NCBI GenBank assembly: GCA_020060545.1
Contig: JAGUZX010000086.1
Coordinates: 1 to 52,275 of the forward strand
Length of the DNA stretch: 52,275 bases
Direction: 5' to 3'
DNA from: Desulfovibrio sp.
GTDB taxonomy: Bacteria; Bacillota; Dethiobacteria; DTU022
In this document: piece by piece, positions 1 to 19,778 of the stretch
How the letters are laid out: each line of letters opens with the position of its first letter
How positions within the stretch are numbered: position 1 is the first letter of the stretch
Position numbers and translations under genes: made by a program
Notes under the pieces: model-generated
Database searches by the model: none
What the model saw: only the letters and a program-made list of their open reading frames with translations
What the model was told of the DNA's origin: nothing

Positions 1-568
1 ATCAACATTGGCCAGCTCCTGTCTGTGTCAACCCAAACTGCCTAAGGTGATGATACGTCCGCCCCTTCCCTCCACCTGCTTTCACAGGTTTCTACGGTAT
101 TATGAGCGAATCGGACTTCCTGTGTGTCTTCTGGGTTTCTCCCCTGTCCTCCAGGTTCAATTCCCATACTGCTTGCTCCACAGAACACACAGGACCTCAG
201 CTGTTCTAATGAAACATCTCTCAGCCGCCTCGCCAAGTTCTCTGACCCCGGAAGAGTTGCATCACCCTCACCTTATCGGTTGACACAATGCTGCCTGCTG
301 CCTCCAAGATGGCATCGGCCTCTTCATCCCTATAATTATTTCGTGGCTCAATCACTTCAGCTTCCGCTTTCGGCTCGGCTGGCTCCCTGTCCTACGCTTA
401 AACCTAACGTTACCGCTTCGGCTCCAAGGACTCGGTACCGGCTGTTGGTTAGACTTTACCGGATAGGGTTCCCCTACTATGTTTCATTAGCTTACAAATG
501 GCTGTGCATTATCTTCAGCCATGTGGAACGCTCACAAGCTTTACGCTCGCTGCGTTCGCAGCTCGCAC
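1..568 (-). mobile_element. Probable group II intron, 5' portion (cut by window edge)
   Basis: No convincing protein reads across this stretch. On the minus strand it begins at 568 with GTGCGAGC, matching the GUGYG 5' end typical of bacterial group II introns, and continues with short stem-forming segments as expected for intron domain I (for example the GGGGAACCC run, revcomp of 467-475). The boundary is sharp: the 19 bases just upstream (569-587) match promoter-like repeats at 2088-2106 and, with a 6-bp insertion, near 5250-5277. In both of those the repeat continues as CAAAAGC or CAAAAAGC, whereas here it stops exactly at the proposed intron G1. The intron-encoded reverse transcriptase and domains V/VI would lie left of base 1. 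I did not fold the RNA, so the call rests on the 5' consensus and the interrupted repeat. Confidence 0.55.
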
Positions 569-11584: not shown

Positions 11585-12010
11585 CTACAAAATAAAAGCA
11601 TTAAAGTGTTCTACGAGGCCGGAAACAGCCGCCATAACGGCCGGGGCCGGCTCCAGGGCCGTCACGCTTGCCCCTCGCTGCGCCATGGGTATGGCAAAAT
11701 CTCCGGTCCCGGCGCCGATGTCCAGCACGTCCACCCCCGGCCGGAGAGCCCCTTCGCGCTCCAGCCATGAAATAACCCGTTCCACCCGGTTGCGGGAGCG
11801 GCCCTGTTCCGGCCATCGCACCAACAGCCCGGCCAGCCCGTCCCAGTAATCTAGATTAGCGGCAGCGCCGCGGCGCCGGGTGTTAACGGACTGGCGGAGC
11901 ACTTCGTTCCAGGTTTCTATCCAGTAATGTGGCTCCTTCAGTTTTGAGCTCAATGGATAGTTATTTTCTCGCTTGCCTGTCAGCTTGCCCGCCTCCTTTA
12001 CGAAGCACAT
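11585..12010 (-). pseudogene. Class I SAM-dependent methyltransferase, C-terminally truncated
   Basis: 141 residues. The N-terminal helical part (HYWIETWNEVLRQSV...YWDGLAG) and the SAM-binding motif I VLDIGAGTGDFAIPMAQ plus the acidic end of strand beta-2 (VTALEPAPAV) are present. The sequence then passes into HFNAFIL and a stop, where the base composition drops from GC-rich to AT-rich. The remaining half of the Rossmann domain is missing (relatives are about 250-280 residues). It overlaps the end of the oppC-like gene and was evidently the last surviving gene of the ABC operon, truncated by a rearrangement near 11600. It may still be translated but is unlikely to be active. Confidence 0.75.
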
Positions 12011-12863
12011 TTTTTATCGCCTCCCCTCGCAGGCGCGGGTTCACCACTTCTTCCAGGGCATATCCGGTCAGGGCAAAAGCCAGCACCGTGAAGGTTATGA
12101 GCAGCCCCGGCGGCAGGATCCACCAAAGCCACGCCCCGGTGAGGAAAGCGCCGCGCGCCTGGGCATAGGATAAGACCATGCCCCAGCTTTTGGCCGTCGG
12201 GTCGCCCAGGCCGAGAAAGGCCAGCGACGACTCGATCAAAACGGCGGAAGAGACGGCGCGGATGAACTGGGCCAGCGCCACGGGCAAAACCCCGGGCAGT
12301 ATATGCCGGAACATGATCCGGGCATCGGCGCCGCCCAGGGCGCGGGCCGCCTGCACGTAGCCGTACTCCCGCAGGCTGAGGACCTGGGAGCGGATCACCC
12401 TTGCGGGGCCGGCCCAGGTCAGCAGGCCGATCACCAAAATAATATTGGACATGCGCGGTCCCAGGTAGGCAGCCAGCAAGATCATTAAGGGCAGAAAGGG
12501 GATCACCAACACGATATCCGCCAGGCGCATGAAAAGCGGATCCAGCCACCTCCGGTAGTAGCCGCTGACAATTCCGATGAAGGTGCCCAGGAGCAAGGCG
12601 ATGGCCGCGGCGAAAAAACCGATGGCCAGCGAAACCCGCGTCCCCCAAATAATTTCACTTAAAATATCCTGCCCGATATCGTTGGTGCCCAGGGGGTGTT
12701 GCGCCGAGGGCTTCTGGAAAGGCGGGCCCACCCTCTCGTAAGGATCGTGGGGCGCCAACCAGGGCGCAAAGAGAGCGGTGCATAAAATGAGCAGCAGCAA
12801 GGCCGCCCCGATTCTGCCGGCCCCGATTATTTTCATCGACTGGAAGATACATGCCGCGTTCAC
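11961..12863 (-). CDS. OppC/DppC-type ABC transporter permease
   Basis: 300 residues. N-terminal cytoplasmic segment and first membrane helix (AALLLLILCTALFAPWLAP), the OppC hallmark HPLGTNDIGQDILSEIIWG at about residues 55-73, and the EAA loop YVQAARALGGADARIMFRHILP in the BPD_transp_1 domain, with about six membrane segments. It starts with GTG at 12863 in a GTGA overlap with the stop of the oppB-like gene, indicating translational coupling. It forms the membrane channel with that protein, powered by the OppD/F-type ATPases upstream. Confidence 0.92.
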   Translation of the reverse strand: MNAACIFQSMKIIGAGRIGAALLLLILCTALFAPWLAPHDPYERVGPPFQKPSAQHPLGTNDIGQDILSEIIWGTRVSLAIGFFAAAIALLLGTFIGIVSGYYRRWLDPLFMRLADIVLVIPFLPLMILLAAYLGPRMSNIILVIGLLTWAGPARVIRSQVLSLREYGYVQAARALGGADARIMFRHILPGVLPVALAQFIRAVSSAVLIESSLAFLGLGDPTAKSWGMVLSYAQARGAFLTGAWLWWILPPGLLITFTVLAFALTGYALEEVVNPRLRGEAIKNVLRKGGGQADRQARK

Positions 12864-13846
12864 CTGACGTGCCTCCCTTCAATCCGCACCCGGGGGTCCG
12901 CCAGGGGATAAAGAAGATCAGCCGCCAGGTTGGCCGCGATGACGCATACCGTGACCATCATGAATGCGGCCTGCAGCACCGGGTAATCGCGCTGGAGCAC
13001 CGCCTCAAACATCAGCCTCCCCAGGCCCGGCCAGACAAAGACCGTTTCCACCACCGTCGCCCCGCTAACCACAAAGCCGAGGCTCAGCATGAACAAGGTA
13101 ATGACCGGCAAGAGGGCATTGCGAAGGACATGGCGAAAAACAATGCGCCCTTCCGGCAAGCCCTTGGCCCGGGCCACGGTGATATATTGTTCGCCCAGGA
13201 CCCCCAGGGTGGAATAGCGCACGGTCAGAAACAGGCCGGCGATGGTTACCAGGGTCAGGGTGGTCAGGGGTAAAGCCAGGTGATGCAGCACGTCCGCAAC
13301 AGCGGCCCAGCCGGTGTAGCCGGCAAAAGGGCTTTGCGCCCCGAACACGGGAAACCAGCGCAGGGAAGACCCGAAAAGGGCAACCAGAATCATCCCCAGC
13401 CAGAAAGAGGGCATGGAATCGAGAAAAATGAACAGAGATAACATGCCCAAGTCGCTGATACGCCCGCGGCGCCAGGCGGCCAGGGTTCCGCAGACCACCC
13501 CGGCAAGGGCGGAGAGGGCCAGGGCGGAGCCGGTCAGCAGCACTGTCCAAGGCAGGCGTTCCCAAATGATTACAGCCACGGGCCGCCGCTGCCTGTAGGA
13601 ATACCCCAGGTCGCCTTTGGCCAGTTGGCCCAGGTAGAGAGTAAACTGCCGCCAAAGGGGCTGGTCGAGGCCGTGCCTGGCCATGATTTCCTCCCGCTCC
13701 GCTCGAGACAGAAGGCCCACGTCCTCACCGGCCAGCAGCTGCAGCGGCGACCCCGGCATCAGCCGCGGCAAGGAAAAGTTGAGGGCCAGGGTGAGAAGAA
13801 GAACCAGGCCGTACTGCATTAGTTTGCGTCCCCAAAACTGCAGCAT
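12860..13846 (-). CDS. OppB/DppB-type ABC transporter permease
   Basis: 328 residues from the ATG at 13846, chosen because GAGGCGGTGAAAAGG lies just upstream; the frame stays open to 13924 but that part is not conserved-looking. MLQFWGRKLMQYGLVLLLTL is the first membrane segment, followed by the OppB-type PGSPLQLL...RHGLDQPLWRQFTLYLG region, the GDLGYSYRQRRPV motif and the EAA loop YITVARAKGLPEGRIVFRHVLRN. The 3' end overlaps the oppC-like start by four bases. The substrate cannot be read from the permease; this family carries peptides, nickel and other small solutes. Confidence 0.92.
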   Translation of the reverse strand: MLQFWGRKLMQYGLVLLLTLALNFSLPRLMPGSPLQLLAGEDVGLLSRAEREEIMARHGLDQPLWRQFTLYLGQLAKGDLGYSYRQRRPVAVIIWERLPWTVLLTGSALALSALAGVVCGTLAAWRRGRISDLGMLSLFIFLDSMPSFWLGMILVALFGSSLRWFPVFGAQSPFAGYTGWAAVADVLHHLALPLTTLTLVTIAGLFLTVRYSTLGVLGEQYITVARAKGLPEGRIVFRHVLRNALLPVITLFMLSLGFVVSGATVVETVFVWPGLGRLMFEAVLQRDYPVLQAAFMMVTVCVIAANLAADLLYPLADPRVRIEGRHVR

Positions 13847-13928
13847 CCTTTTCACCGCCTCGTAAAGGCGGCCGGCGCCAACCGGAAAAGTAAGGCGGCC
13901 CGGGTGGCGCCGGCCACAGGCCAATTAC

Positions 13929-15569
13929 TTACGGAACCGGCACGAAAGAGAGTTTGTTCAAGATCCCCTGCCCGTTTTGATATACCCAGCCGTCATAAGT
14001 GCCCGGCCGGTAGGCGTAGATACCGTCGGGATAAAATAAGGTGACAAAGGGTACAGTATCGGCTACCGCTGACTGAAGGTCTGACATCAGCTTGCTCTGC
14101 CTATCCGGGTCGATGGTACCCGCCAGCTCTTCTACCATGGCATCAACGTTTTCTCCGGCATATGCGCCGATGTTGAGGCTACCCCGGGTGTTTAAGTCCG
14201 AGTGGAACAAGGCGCCCAGGCGGGCCGGATCCAGCATCACCGGAGCCGACCAGCCCCAAATGGCCAGGTCGTAGTCCCGCCCCCTGGTCACATCAAAATC
14301 CGGCCAGACCAGGCTGTCCACGGTGCTGGAATCCAAAGCTTTGACTTTTACGTTCATGCCGATTGCAGCCAGGCTTTCAGCAATGATCTCCGCAGTGCGC
14401 ACCCGCAGCGGATCGTTGGAACGAACCAGCAGTTCAAATTCCTCATCGCCGAAGGAATCGGCAAACCCGGTTTCTTCCAGAAGAGCGCGGGCCTGGGCCG
14501 GGTCTGTTATATGCTTAAGGCCGGTTTTATAACCGGGCAGCGCCGGGTGGAGATAACCTGGGTTACCGGCGGTGCCGTAGCCCAGCAGGACGGTTTCCAC
14601 CAGGCCGTCTATATCTATGGCCCTGGCGATGGCCAGGCGCACTCTCGGGTCGTTAAAAGGCTCACGCTCGTTGTTTATCTGCAGCAGGGTGCTGACAAAG
14701 CCGGGCCCCGTCACCACCGCCACGTCAGTGGTGCCGGAAAACTCCTCCACCAGCTCGGGAAGCAGGCTCCGGGCGGCGATATCAATATCCCCCACCCGCA
14801 GGGCGGTGAAGGTGGCGGTCTGGTCTTCAATGATTACGATACCGATTTCATCCACCGCGGGTTTGCCCCGAAAATACCCGGCATTTGCTTCCAGCTTGTA
14901 AGTTTTGTCCGCTTCATGGCTGATCAGCCGGTACGGCCCGCTGCCGGTATTGTCCGTAAAGCTGCCGGGATCGGTTACGTCCCGCCAGATATGGGCGGGG
15001 ATAATGGGCACGTCTGCCAGCGGGTTCATCATGAACGCGGGCACGGGATCGCTCAGCTTTATTGTAAAGTTGAGTTCATCTTCAACCTCGATGGACTCCA
15101 CCGCGGCCACCGCTTTGGTCCACCGGGCGTGCTTGTGTTTCCTGTAGTATTCATAACTGAATTTCACGTCATCCGCGGTCAGAGGCGTCCCGTCGTGCCA
15201 GGTCACCCCTTTGTGCAGGGTAAAGGACCAGGTCAGCCCATCCGCATCGGGTTGATACTTTTCTACCAACCACGGCTGAGGGACATTTTGCTCATCCAGC
15301 TGGAACAAGGTGTCGTAAATCAGCAGCAGCAGGTTGTGCCCGGGATAGCCGCTCACGTAGGTATAGGGGTTCAGCGACCCCTCATCCCTGGCTATGGCCA
15401 GCCGCACATGGATCGGCCCCTGGTCATCTGCCGGCGCTGCTGCCGGCGAGCAAGACGCCGCCACCAGCAGCAGGGTAACCGCAAACAGGATCGCCAGCAA
15501 TATAACGCTCCACCTGCCTGTACTTGCGTAGTTGAAGGTTTTCCCTTTCATCTTTGTCTTACCATTCAT
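13929..15569 (-). CDS. Family 5 ABC substrate-binding lipoprotein
   Basis: 546 residues. A basic N-terminus, a hydrophobic stretch ending LLVAASC (lipobox, Cys at about residue 40) and a Ser/Ala/Pro linker mark a lipoprotein anchored outside the membrane. The mature part has SBP_bac_5 landmarks: ARDEGSLNPYTYVSGYPG, WHDGTPLTADDVKFSYEYY, GSGPYRLISHEADKTYKLE, DPRVRLAIARAIDIDGL and a C-terminal domain ending with SFVPVP. GGAGG lies 7-8 bases before the ATG. Family members bind peptides, nickel complexes or heme. Its place between the PIG-L-like gene and the permeases shows it is the receptor of this importer. Confidence 0.92.
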   Translation of the reverse strand: MNGKTKMKGKTFNYASTGRWSVILLAILFAVTLLLVAASCSPAAAPADDQGPIHVRLAIARDEGSLNPYTYVSGYPGHNLLLLIYDTLFQLDEQNVPQPWLVEKYQPDADGLTWSFTLHKGVTWHDGTPLTADDVKFSYEYYRKHKHARWTKAVAAVESIEVEDELNFTIKLSDPVPAFMMNPLADVPIIPAHIWRDVTDPGSFTDNTGSGPYRLISHEADKTYKLEANAGYFRGKPAVDEIGIVIIEDQTATFTALRVGDIDIAARSLLPELVEEFSGTTDVAVVTGPGFVSTLLQINNEREPFNDPRVRLAIARAIDIDGLVETVLLGYGTAGNPGYLHPALPGYKTGLKHITDPAQARALLEETGFADSFGDEEFELLVRSNDPLRVRTAEIIAESLAAIGMNVKVKALDSSTVDSLVWPDFDVTRGRDYDLAIWGWSAPVMLDPARLGALFHSDLNTRGSLNIGAYAGENVDAMVEELAGTIDPDRQSKLMSDLQSAVADTVPFVTLFYPDGIYAYRPGTYDGWVYQNGQGILNKLSFVPVP

Positions 15570-15620: not shown

Positions 15621-16376
15621 CTACAACAGGTAAGTGAGTTCAAAGCGGCCGGCCCGCCGGAACGGTTCAGCCAGGGCAAAACCGGTGTGGCTGAGCAAGC
15701 CGTGATAAAGATGAAAGGCGCGGTCCATTTCCCGGTGCAGGGCGCGCCCCAGCTCTACCGGCACCTCTTTGACCTGTTCGTAGTCGCTTAACAGAGAACG
15801 CATGGCGCTCTGCGGCACCATTTTTCCCAGCACCGCCGCGCTAAATGCCAGCTGGCTGGACAGCTCGGCCATGGCCTGCTCCTTGAGGGGGTAAATCTCA
15901 GAGATATCGACAACACAGTTCGGGTGCTCGGGGGTCATAAAGTAAATGCTTCTCACCAGGTGAGGATCAAGCCCCCCGCATTCTTCAATTTTCCAGTCCC
16001 TGGCGGCCAAACTGACCGCTTCCAGATAAAGAATCATCGCTTCCCGCCGGTCGGGGTCCAGGTCGAGAAAAGAATGTTCCGGGTCCTGGGTGATTACGAT
16101 CTCCGGGCGGACCTCCCTGATCAGGCGCACAATCTTTATTTTAGAGGCCGTGTCCGCATGCACCTCACCGCTGGCAAAGTCCAAAAAATGAACTTTAACC
16201 CCCAGTACCGCAGCGGCCTTTTGCATCTGCTCCCTGTTTTCAACCCTAGCCAGGGAGACGGCCGCTTCTACCTTCCCACCGGCCTGACCATGCTTGGCCA
16301 GGGTTCCACCGCACTCCACGATCTCCATGCCGTAGGTTGCCAGAAGCAAGATATCTTTTTCCCCTTGCAATAACAT
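15621..16376 (-). CDS. PIG-L/LmbE-fold protein lacking the metal ligands
   Basis: 251 residues with the PIG-L Rossmann-like fold: an N-terminal strand, then ECGGTLAKHG at 21-30, followed by RPEIVITQDPEHSF at 90-103. Active PIG-L deacetylases carry (A)HPDDE before CGGT; here the same positions read (A)TYGME (14-18), so the zinc-binding His and Asp and the catalytic Asp are lost. The second motif, normally HPDHR, reads DPDRR (107-111), so that His pair is gone as well. It is therefore unlikely to be an ordinary zinc deacetylase; it may be a pseudoenzyme or use another chemistry. It lies inside an ABC importer operon between oppF and the binding protein. Confidence 0.8.
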   Translation of the reverse strand: MLLQGEKDILLLATYGMEIVECGGTLAKHGQAGGKVEAAVSLARVENREQMQKAAAVLGVKVHFLDFASGEVHADTASKIKIVRLIREVRPEIVITQDPEHSFLDLDPDRREAMILYLEAVSLAARDWKIEECGGLDPHLVRSIYFMTPEHPNCVVDISEIYPLKEQAMAELSSQLAFSAAVLGKMVPQSAMRSLLSDYEQVKEVPVELGRALHREMDRAFHLYHGLLSHTGFALAEPFRRAGRFELTYLL

Positions 16377-16395: not shown

Positions 16396-17355
16396 TCATC
16401 GCAAATGACACGCAGCCGTGCGCTCTTTCCCCACCTCCTTTAAAACTGGTTTTTCCTCACAACATATGCCCGTCGCTTCAGGACAGCGCGGATGAAAGCG
16501 GCAGCCCCGGGGAGGCCTGGAAGGGTCGGGAGGCTCCCCCTTAAGAGTCGCTTTCAATACTGTTTTTTGCCGCGGATCTGGAGCCGGTACCGCTTCTACC
16601 AGCGCCCGTGTATACGGATGGCTGCCCTGAAGATGCAGCTGGCTTGCCGGGATTATCTCTACGATTTGACCCAGGTACATCACCGCCACCCGGGCAGCGA
16701 GACAGCTTACCGCCGCCAGGTCGTGAGAGATAAAGAGATAGGATAAACTGAGCCTTTCTTTTAATTCCCGCAGCAGGTTGAGCACCTGCGCGCGGATGGA
16801 AACATCAAGACTGGAAACCGGTTCGTCGCAAACCAGCAAAGCCGGCTCCAGGGCCAGAGCCCGGGCGATATTGATACGCTGGCGCTGCCCCCCGCTGAAT
16901 TCGTGCGGGTATTTGTCAGCGTCTCCCGGTTCCATGCCAACCAGGTCCATCAGCTCCAACACCCGCTCGCGGCGTTTCTCACGGGAGATGCCGTAATTGA
17001 CCAGGGGCTCCTCGATAATCGCGCCCGCTTTCCAGCGCGGGTTTAAGGATGATGCCGAATCTTGAAATATGATCTGGATATGCCGGCGCAGCCGGCGCAG
17101 CTTCTTTCCCGTGCAGCCGCTAATTTCTTGCCCGTCAAAGTAAATTTCTCCCGCGGTTTTCTCTTCCAACCGTGTCACCAGCCGGGCAAAAGTGCTCTTG
17201 CCGCAGCCGCTTTCCCCCACCAAACCCAGTACCTCGCCCCGTTCCAACGTTAAAGAGATGCCGTCTACGGCCCGCACTTTCGCCCGCCTGTATTTACCAA
17301 AATAAAAACTGCCTTCGTAGTGTTTGACCAGATTTCTTACTTCTAAAAGACTCAT
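16396..17355 (-). CDS. OppF/DppF-type ABC transporter ATP-binding protein
   Basis: 319 residues from the ATG at 17355, eight bases after GGAGGTG and in an ATGA overlap with the upstream oppD-like stop; the open frame to 17388 is not needed. Walker [14 protein letters not shown]-loop [14 protein letters not shown], signature [15 protein letters not shown], Walker [15 protein letters not shown] and the H-loop SHDLAAV are all intact. The C-terminal oligopeptide-transporter extension contains [12 protein letters not shown] and the cysteine cluster [15 protein letters not shown] seen in OppF/DppF proteins, where it binds an Fe-S cluster or metal. Confidence 0.93.
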
Positions 17356-18344
17356 CTTTTTGACACCTCCACCATAGCAGGCAGGCAAAGCTGGTGGCAG
17401 GCAGCCGTGTGACCGGGACCAACTGTTGTTAATGGAGGCCTTTTACCCCGGCATGCCGTGAAAGCTTCCGGACAGCGGGGCAAAAAAGCGCATTCGTCAG
17501 GGAGATTGAGAAGGGACGGCGGCTGACCTTTAATGGGCACCAGCGCCTCCTGGCCAAAACGGGGGATGGAACAGAGTAAAGCCCGGGTGTAAGGATGGGC
17601 CGGGCGGTCAAAGAGCTCCGCCACAGGCGCGCGCTCCACGATGGAACCGGCGTACATTACCGCCACTGAATCGGCCATCGCCGCGATGACCCCCATGTCG
17701 TGGGTAACGAGGATAACCGCCATTTTCAGCTCTTCCTGCAACCGTTTCAACTCCGACAGGATTTGGGCCTGTACGGTGGTATCCAGAGCGGTCGTCGGTT
17801 CATCTAAAATTAATACTTTGGGGTGCAGCAAGAGCGCCATGGTCAGCAGCACCCGCTGGCACATCCCTCCGGAAAGTTCCAAGGGGTAACAGCGCATGAG
17901 CCTATCCGGATCGGGGAGTCCCATCCGGTGCAGCTGCACCACGGCCATTTTTTTGGCTAGACCGGCGCTCACCTTCTCGTGTGAGAGAACGGTTTCCACT
18001 AACTGTAGACCGACGCTCAACACCGGGTTCAGCGACGCCAGCGGATCCTGGAAAACAAGGGCGATTTCCCGCCCCCGCAGACGCCGCAACTCCCGCGGCG
18101 GCGTTTTCAGCAAGTCGCGGCCGTTTAACCAAACTTCTCCGGAATTTATTCTCCCGGGCGGTTTGACCAGGCCGGAGATCGAGAGGGCCGTAACGCTTTT
18201 ACCGCAGCCGCTTTCTCCGACCAAACCCAGGGCGTGACCCGCCTCCACCGTAAAACTGACACCGTCTACAGCCTTGACGACACCTTGACGGGTGTAAAAA
18301 TGAGTGGAAAGATTATGGACTTTTAAGGCAGAAGTTGAAAACAC
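17352..18344 (-). CDS. OppD/DppD-type ABC transporter ATP-binding protein
   Basis: 330 residues starting with GTG at 18344 after AAGGAAGG. Walker [15 protein letters not shown]-loop [13 protein letters not shown], signature [15 protein letters not shown] (the usual Q after GG is M), Walker [15 protein letters not shown] and H-loop THDMGVIA are present. The C-terminal part has the family motif [13 protein letters not shown] and the cysteine cluster [14 protein letters not shown]. It pairs with the OppF-type ATPase that follows with a four-base overlap. Confidence 0.93.
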
Positions 18345-18412: not shown

Positions 18413-19399
18413 TCAATCGACTTTGGCCGCACAAACCCGGCAGTAGAGACCTTCCTTTCCTGAAATGCTTTTTTCCAAAGATACAATTTCGCCGCATCGA
18501 GAACACGCGGTATAACGAAACCGCCCGGAAAAGCGCGGCGGCTGCAAGGTAACCATTTTTTTCACAAACAGCTGCTCCTCGGGAAGCTCCAAAATTGCCT
18601 GGACAGCCGTATCAACAGCCTGACGGTATTGCTCCAGTTCAGTTTCAGTTCCCTGGCCGGCGAAAATCTTGTTGTCCAGCTCCCCGGTCAACCCCAGGTC
18701 AACCGCGCGGCTCACCAGGGCCAACCGCAACACTTCTTGCGGCTCACGGTTGGCGTTTGTCCGCCCAAAATAATAAACATGTTTTCCCAGGTCATAGGCT
18801 AAAAAGTTTTGATTGCCGATGGTGCAGCCGGTCAGAAGCTGAAGCGCTTCAATGGCTGAACTCATATTCTCCGCCAGAATAAAAAATTCTAATGCGTTTT
18901 CCCTGGAAAGGCCCACTTCTCGTTGGGCAACCAAAGCGGCCCGATAGCCCACGGCCAGCTCGGGACAAAGGTGACCGTGGTAGTAAACCACGTTGGCCAG
19001 CTTTAACGGGACCATGGCCATTTTACTCGTCCCCCGGGGAAGCGCTGCTTTATTTCGGGCGCTGTCATCCTCTGCATTATCATCAATAGAATCTGTTCGT
19101 TTAGAATCCTCACCATCAACCCTGTACTTCAAAATCCACCGGCTCCTGCTCACGGCCTGGGTCTGATTTTCGCGCTCCAATGAAAGACAAAACACACCCC
19201 GGTTGGTCAGGATAAGGTGCTGCAGATGCCCCTGGGCGCTTTTAAAAAAATGCAGCGGTTTTAAAACTTCATGGTGGTTGTCCCGCCACTGAAAGCCCAG
19301 CGGGGTCTGCTGGGTGTTGTCATATTGAACCGGCACCTCTTCCTGGATAAAGCAAATATCCTCTTTATCTATTTTGGAGATTATTTCACGAAAATCCAT
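18413..19399 (-). CDS. FmdE-like protein with C-terminal zinc ribbon, first gene of the ABC operon
   Basis: 328 residues. The N-terminal about 110 residues are not recognised and end in a charged, low-complexity linker (DSIDDNAEDDSARNK). Residues about 125-270 match the FmdE domain: VYYHGHLCPELAVGYRAA carries the His and Cys of the metal site, and LLTGCTIGNQNF the second Cys. The last 30 residues form a zinc ribbon (CSRCGE...YCRVCAAK). FmdE was named from formylmethanofuran dehydrogenase operons, but stand-alone members are common in anaerobes and their role is unclear. A 68-bp gap separates it from oppD. AAGGAGTG precedes the ATG. The context suggests handling of a metal or of the imported ligand; this is inference. 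Confidence 0.8.
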   Translation of the reverse strand: MDFREIISKIDKEDICFIQEEVPVQYDNTQQTPLGFQWRDNHHEVLKPLHFFKSAQGHLQHLILTNRGVFCLSLERENQTQAVSRSRWILKYRVDGEDSKRTDSIDDNAEDDSARNKAALPRGTSKMAMVPLKLANVVYYHGHLCPELAVGYRAALVAQREVGLSRENALEFFILAENMSSAIEALQLLTGCTIGNQNFLAYDLGKHVYYFGRTNANREPQEVLRLALVSRAVDLGLTGELDNKIFAGQGTETELEQYRQAVDTAVQAILELPEEQLFVKKMVTLQPPRFSGRFRYTACSRCGEIVSLEKSISGKEGLYCRVCAAKVD

Positions 19400-19778
19400 G
19401 CTGTTTCACTCCTTCGTGATTTTGAAAGGCTAACCAGGCAACAATTTGACGTATAGACTAAATGTGTTACTAATTATAATAATCGTGCTATCGATGGGCC
19501 CAAAAAAAGTGCTACTAATATATCATTTTGTGTTACTGGTATAAATTCTTCACCATATAAAAAACTCCTGCCTCAGGTAGAAAAAAACACCATAAAAAGT
19601 GTCGTTCTTTTAATGCCGTGGGGTCAGATATGACTCTCTACCTGGTAAGCTCAATTTGTACAGTACACCCTGCTGGGTCTGGCGGGACAAACGGTGGAAG
19701 CGGTGGTGGAACTGCCGGTGATCGAACCGGTAAACGAATTCCCCTTCCAACTGCACCCGTCCATGATTTTGTTTGAAA
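19400..19778. other. Intergenic, decayed sequence
   Basis: No intact gene. The left 100 bases hold the AT-rich upstream region of the FmdE gene. Around 19660-19830 the plus strand reads LLGLAGQTVEAVVELPV and FPFQLHPSMILFEI, which looks like a fragment of a real protein of unknown family that breaks off at the RelE-like remnant. Confidence 0.4.

Follow-up and report, generated by a model that had tools for sequence, protein, structure and literature searches.

Genetic organization of the locus

The window, the whole stretch of 52,275 nucleotides that was analysed, contains a putative operon on the minus strand in which importer genes flank a gene for a PIG-L-fold protein without a zinc site. 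The first gene of the operon encodes an FmdE-domain protein (18413–19399; PF02663, 93.8 bits), followed by an OppD-type (17352–18344) and an OppF-type ATPase (16396–17388), both assigned from their open reading frames and model matches, and by the PIG-L-fold protein itself (15621–16376; 251 residues, ATG start), hereafter the target. Downstream lie a family 5 solute-binding protein (SBP) of the Opp/Nik type (13929–15569; SBP_bac_5, PF00496, 287.9 bits), OppB-type (12860–13924) and OppC-type (11961–12863) permeases identified by model matches and, at the end of the operon, a methyltransferase-like short ORF (11585–12010; 141 residues) that is probably truncated; its relative in locus L057 comprises 319 residues. 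The target gene thus has importer genes on both sides, in agreement with the central place within a transporter operon that the initial annotation had given it. The FmdE protein carries a C-terminal zinc-ribbon-like CxxC pair, and among 54 loci with a full-length target an FmdE gene was found near the target only in the window and not in the other 53. The edge of the window (236–472) matches the group II intron model RF02005 (142 bits).

Homology of the SBP was uninformative as a guide to the cargo. Its best NCBIfam model is of the NikA type (152.4 bits, below the cut-off of 600), neither the SBP nor the permeases reached a nickel-specific cut-off, and the PDB matches of the SBP are a mix of peptide and nickel binders. 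Rfam scans of 28 loci (L032–L059) and the window revealed no riboswitch ahead of the target operon. Riboswitch control was rejected: the cobalamin riboswitch of L032 belongs to a different set of genes, and that for molybdenum in L042 lies ~8 kb away.

The PIG-L-fold protein lacks the zinc ligands and base of the deacetylases

The initial annotation had noted that TYGME and DPDRR replace HPDDE and HPDHR within a conserved framework. Both motifs are present in the ORF, at residues 14–18 (DNA 16323–16337) and 107–111 (DNA 16044–16058), respectively, together with the framework strings CGGTLAKHG and RPEIVITQDP. For the LmbE-like superfamily, Table 1 of PMC4101496 lists HxDD and a His as zinc ligands and assigns the role of base to the first Asp, and the same source has zinc bound by the first His and second Asp of HxDD (PMC4101496). 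In an HMM/family-profile alignment to solved diacetylchitobiose deacetylase chains, D107 and R110 align opposite both HPDH histidines. A gap-free reading of motif 1 places T14 opposite the first His, and one MAFFT run, shifted by one residue, places Y15 there; in either register, no His and no Asp pair is left. HxDD, the last His of HxDH (HxxH) and the catalytic Asp are all absent from the window protein, which, judged by its sequence, is well supported as a pseudoenzyme relative to the zinc deacetylases.

The PIG-L fold is nonetheless predicted to be kept. AlphaFold2, run with the family alignment A1 described below, returned a mean pLDDT of 90.1 and a pTM of 0.89. VIA-align 2 was run on Foldseek's best 1000, which leaves families beyond that ranking invisible and their absence uninformative, and gave Z-scores of 24–25 and rmsd values of 2.0–2.7 over ~208 residues for the nearest structures (diacetylchitobiose deacetylases, BshB and LnmX). 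The target resembles the LmbE-like/PIG-L zinc deacetylases (diacetylchitobiose deacetylase, BshB, TT1542, LnmX and MshB) in fold over nearly its whole length and shares with its canonical relatives A27, G33, L42, A54, A55, L58, R87, P91, D98, P99, D109, R111, P152, N153, K165, A168 and Q175. Beyond the lost zinc ligands and base, it differs from them in having fixed residues of its own and in its setting in importer operons, whereas the zinc deacetylases belong to sugar or thiol metabolism. The hydratase GalB is still zinc-dependent and, unlike the target, has an aromatic breakdown product as its substrate. It resembles the target in fold (PDB 5cgz, name as deposited; Z 21.8, rmsd 2.3 over 199 residues), and the PIG-L fold therefore also serves reactions besides deacetylation.

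We consider it highly improbable that the window protein functions as a normal zinc-dependent PIG-L deacetylase or represents such an enzyme in decay. Its Pfam PIG-L score (PF02585) does exceed the gathering cut-off (35.1 versus 28.2 bits), in a match that covers residues 27–101 only and leaves motif 1 outside, and deacetylase names (PIG-L family deacetylase, GlcNAc-PI de-N-acetylase) are given to family members in public records. However, the protein scores far under the cut-off of every NCBIfam deacetylase model, including the BshB1 equivalog TIGR04001 (47.4 versus 182.5 bits), the zinc-ligand motifs of a canonical enzyme are lost, and the replacement residues are constant from one phylum to the next, as detailed below. 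The case cautions against transferring 'deacetylase' names to PIG-L-fold relatives.

The initial annotation had offered two options, a pseudoenzyme or a ligand-binding subunit. The former agrees with the sequence; as to the latter, an extracellular binding protein is unlikely, since the operon encodes its own SBP_bac_5 protein and the target shows no export signal by eye, its sequence opening directly with a core β-strand in the predicted model. The target may be a cytosolic ligand binder, which forms part of the reading that we prefer.

A distinct family with fixed replacement motifs

A first scan of genome contigs revealed 28 related loci in Bacillota, Chloroflexota, Bipolaricaulota, Deinococcota, Armatimonadota, Actinomycetota, Shewanella and a spirochaete. 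Alignment A1 comprises 24 full-length rows with 43–78% identity to the window protein and omits L038, which contains a run of Ns, the partial L056 and L057–L059. Further searches brought the set examined by profile to 58 loci, counting the window. All 58 hold [YF]GxE, the family form of motif 1 being [TVSN][YF]GxE. The second motif region is present in 55 and reads DLDP[DG]RR in every one of them; it is missing from L057, which is truncated, and from L058 and L059, which carry an internal deletion. A His at position 107 or 110 occurs in 0/55 of these loci, and Arg replaces the last His in all of them. Family counts are inflated by near-copies, such as five identical Meiothermus rows. Among 50 distinct sequences, no variation occurs at G16, E18, Q97, D105, L106, D107, P108, R110, R111 or H230, and 96% have H101.

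By comparison, HPDD and HxDH are retained in 27/27 canonical relatives, all taken from the order to which the window belongs (28 loci examined, with L011 dropped as it has no motif 1). In a quick maximum-likelihood tree, a single branch parts the 54 family rows from the 27 canonical rows (SH-aLRT 100); with a canonical set from one order and a midpoint root, the separation is visible and the origin is not. A clade sharing the TYGME- and DPDRR-type motifs, which the initial annotation had suggested looking for, therefore exists, and by alignment and tree the window protein belongs to a distinct family. The conserved replacement motifs, fixed over 55–58 loci, and the single branch apart from canonical relatives argue that this is not a decaying gene, in agreement with the view first taken that the changes are not random decay. 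The family illustrates clearly how a metalloenzyme fold can stay under strong constraint after loss of its metal site, and our literature search found no description of it. A divergent branch from Bipolaricaulota (L113–L115; NYGAE, DLDPDRR) has longer open frames and no importer nearby.

Association with two types of importer

The family is patchily distributed. At a threshold of E 1e-30, and with each count including a centre genome already known to be positive, it was found in 2/299 sampled genomes of the window's own phylum, 10/100 of Bipolaricaulota, 1/301 of Chloroflexota, 10/111 of Deinococcota, 6/249 of the order of Evansella and 9/152 of the family of Shewanella. Six plasmid records also carry the target (one from Meiothermus and five from Cytobacillus), named PIG-L family deacetylase in four cases, GlcNAc-PI de-N-acetylase in one and hypothetical protein in one. 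The patchy distribution and the plasmid copies suggest horizontal spread.

Neighbours were counted within 7 kb of the 54 full-length members (58 loci minus L056–L059), in flanks of differing length and with some contigs short. An importer lies within this distance in 49/54 cases, of the Opp/Nik type in 40 and of the FecCD type in 11, two loci having both; the five without one are L050 (a second Nonomuraea copy), L053 and L113–L115. In the gammaproteobacterial loci the partner set consists of a periplasmic PBP2 protein, a FecCD permease, an ATPase and a TonB receptor, and a [NiFe] hydrogenase small subunit gene is found near the Shewanella locus L051. These are the importer classes of the NikABCDE/Opp-type and CeuE/FecCD-type nickel importers, neither of which is known to us with a PIG-L-fold accessory.

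NikR, NikR-like sites and other metals

A gene for the nickel regulator NikR lies within 7 kb of the target in 9/54 loci, which span two phyla and both importer types. In L035–L037 from Bipolaricaulota, NikR adjoins the operon, as identified in L035 by PF08753 and a score above the NCBIfam cut-off and in the other two by similarity. In L128–L133, from the Shewanella family sample, it is divergent to the operon (107.7 bits versus 83 in L128, the others by similarity). NikR is encoded in 8/29 host genomes searched, including that of the window (G000:C21:4091–4318; 100.7 bits, above the cut-off).

The delta-proteobacterial NikR signal is given in PMC545781 as the inverted repeat GTGTTAC-N13/14-GTAACAC, with the reversed orientation also reported. 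Three NikR-like half-sites lie on the minus strand of the window at 19464–19536 (GTAACAC at 19530–19536, GTAGCAC at 19509–19515 and GTAACAC at 19464–19470), 65–137 bp upstream of the FmdE start, and a weaker ATAGCAC was seen by eye between them. They match the published letters and spacing but form direct repeats, whereas the signal described in that source is an inverted repeat. GT[AG][AG]CAC has 15 matches in the 52 kb, and the sole cluster of three is the one ahead of FmdE. Upstream DNA was scanned for half-sites over the 58 loci, five of which lack it, and the sites of L035–L037 come from separate sequence inspection. Pairs spaced 19–22 bp apart occur six times in 851 kb of loci, four of them before the target operon (window, L035–L037) and two before a neighbouring FecCD operon (L033, L041), compared with 0 to 3 pairs in 20 block shuffles, which ignore dinucleotides and use a pattern widened after the data had been seen. 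All six loci with pairs belong to NikR-bearing genomes. The published half-site alone matches with one mismatch in the window and L038, a match equalled by 1.5 and 1.7% of same-locus sequence windows, and most other loci show nothing. No convincing symmetric NikR palindrome was found before the window operon or the genome's nikR. Since the pattern was widened post hoc, the shuffles disregard dinucleotides and the repeats are direct, we regard regulation of the window operon by NikR as likely only.

In L033 (10031–13049) and L041 (12349–15352), a convergent operon of FecCD, PBP2 and ATPase genes lies beside the Opp operon, with its half-site pair ~90–110 bp upstream; it is possibly a second nickel importer.

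The nickel ligands of Escherichia coli NikR include His-x-His and Cys. When aligned by eye, the NikRs of L035–L037 and of the window's genome keep His-x-His and Cys, whereas those of L128–L133 read I/L/V-x-C plus Arg at the corresponding positions, and these six may sense something other than nickel. In L128–L133, a regulator with a seemingly changed metal site thus stands beside a target that has lost its own.

Nickel is the best-supported cargo, a link that the initial annotation had not drawn. As further support for it we considered the [NiFe] hydrogenase large subunit, matched in 16/25 host genomes, and set it aside: several weak matches may be complex I relatives. Other neighbours within 7 kb of the 54 full-length members point to metals without specifying nickel, namely CsoR (9), heavy-metal P-type ATPases (8), ArsR (8), Fur (4) and CDF transporters (4); MFS transporters were found in 10. 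The plasmid operons of Cytobacillus (Bacilli) lie within a copper island, and copper-type neighbours in Bacilli argue against nickel as a universal cargo. In six of the 54 loci, all from Bacilli (L044, L063, L064, L124, L125 and L127), a protein of ~210 residues with a sirohaem/4Fe-4S reductase domain is encoded near the operon.

The target may accordingly be an accessory of the same importers with a cargo that varies between lineages (nickel, cobalt, copper, iron, or a metal-free chelator or peptide), a reading to which the Fur, CsoR, ArsR, CDF, P-type ATPase and copper-island neighbours, and the reductase-domain gene of the Bacilli, lend some weight. We consider it unlikely, as NikR accompanies the target in two phyla far apart and beside both types of importer, and the target family is very uniform.

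Putative role in handling imported nickel chelates

Our leading reading, held tentatively and with a little less than even confidence, is that the zinc-site-free PIG-L-fold protein is a cytosolic accessory of metal-chelate importers, clearest in NikR-linked nickel uptake, that binds or processes the chelate without a zinc of its own. The importer, with its binding protein, two permeases and two ATPases, would carry a nickel–ligand complex into the cell, where the former substrate pocket of the target, now presumably lined by a fixed set of residues of its own (E18, Q97, H101, D105, D107, R110, R111 and H230), would bind either this complex or the organic ligand. Nickel would then be handed on, either by holding of the ligand or by its cleavage without protein-bound zinc. 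Counting against this reading are the limited reach of NikR (9/54 loci, 8/29 host genomes), an SBP with no nickel-specific score, the copper setting of the Bacilli plasmid operons, the five members with no importer in range and the two relatives that keep the importer with a remnant of the gene. The occurrence of one cytosolic protein with two unrelated importer types is explained better by a shared cargo than by a shared contact surface. Furthermore, an anionic chelate is a better match than a free cation for the invariant Arg at a former zinc position, which favours binding or zinc-free processing. To our knowledge, the release of nickel from an organic ligand after uptake is an open question, and the family provides a concrete candidate for this intracellular step.

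Several of these residues (H101, H230, D105, D107 and E18), with H139, could instead form a new metal site, making the target either a metallochaperone for nickel or a metalloenzyme whose ligands have moved. D105, D107, E18 and H230 are fixed in 50/50 distinct sequences, H101 is nearly so, all are family-specific, and the gene context is one of metal handling; yet the HxDD and last-His ligand positions are all lost and the invariant R110 lies opposite a former zinc-binding His, so that we judge a relocated site rather unlikely. It is quite unlikely, in our estimation, that the target evolved from a PIG-L enzyme into a hydrolase or lyase of nickel chelates and lost its zinc because the metal arrives with the substrate. 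In that case, the nickel complex would dock at the old zinc spot, its nickel would activate the bond, and cleavage of the ligand would free the nickel.

Importer operons with a remnant of the gene

In the window's own order, a close SBP orthologue (65–100% identity) occurs in 5/71 genomes, three with the full target gene and two with a remnant; a sixth SBP, at 45% identity, is without the target. The remnants (L058:1259–1378 and L059:6377–6496, in genomes G035 and G037) occupy an intact operon slot and encode 39 residues in frame, in which the ~21–24 N-terminal residues, including the strand with TYGME, are fused to the last 15–18, the C-terminal strand. As L058 and L059 keep the importer with a remnant only, the importer may work without the full target.

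This loss of the gene while the importer persists, together with genetic linkage to two unrelated importer types, would suit a regulatory subunit that gates the importer through contact with its permease or ATPase, by analogy with SlyD and NiuD in Helicobacter pylori. The SlyD gene is not known to lie within the importer operon. Like the role proposed for the target, SlyD is a cytosolic protein required by a nickel ABC importer, described as an activator of the Niu nickel importer of H. pylori (PMC7840056); unlike the target, it is an unrelated protein, a PPIase and chaperone. We regard a gating subunit as distinctly unlikely, because a contact surface common to two unrelated permease types is less probable than a common cargo and because conservation is strongest at the former active site. 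The cytosolic accessory that binds or processes the imported chelate is the reading that we retain.

The junction of the remnant is the same in the two diverged genomes and falls in a short repeat, GC[AG]CTGGCC, which flanks the deleted part in intact relatives. Comparison of the L058 and L059 remnant codons revealed 25 identical codons including the stop, 8 silent differences and 7 residue changes, 5 of which are the first five codons, and this small sample hints that the remnant may be under constraint.
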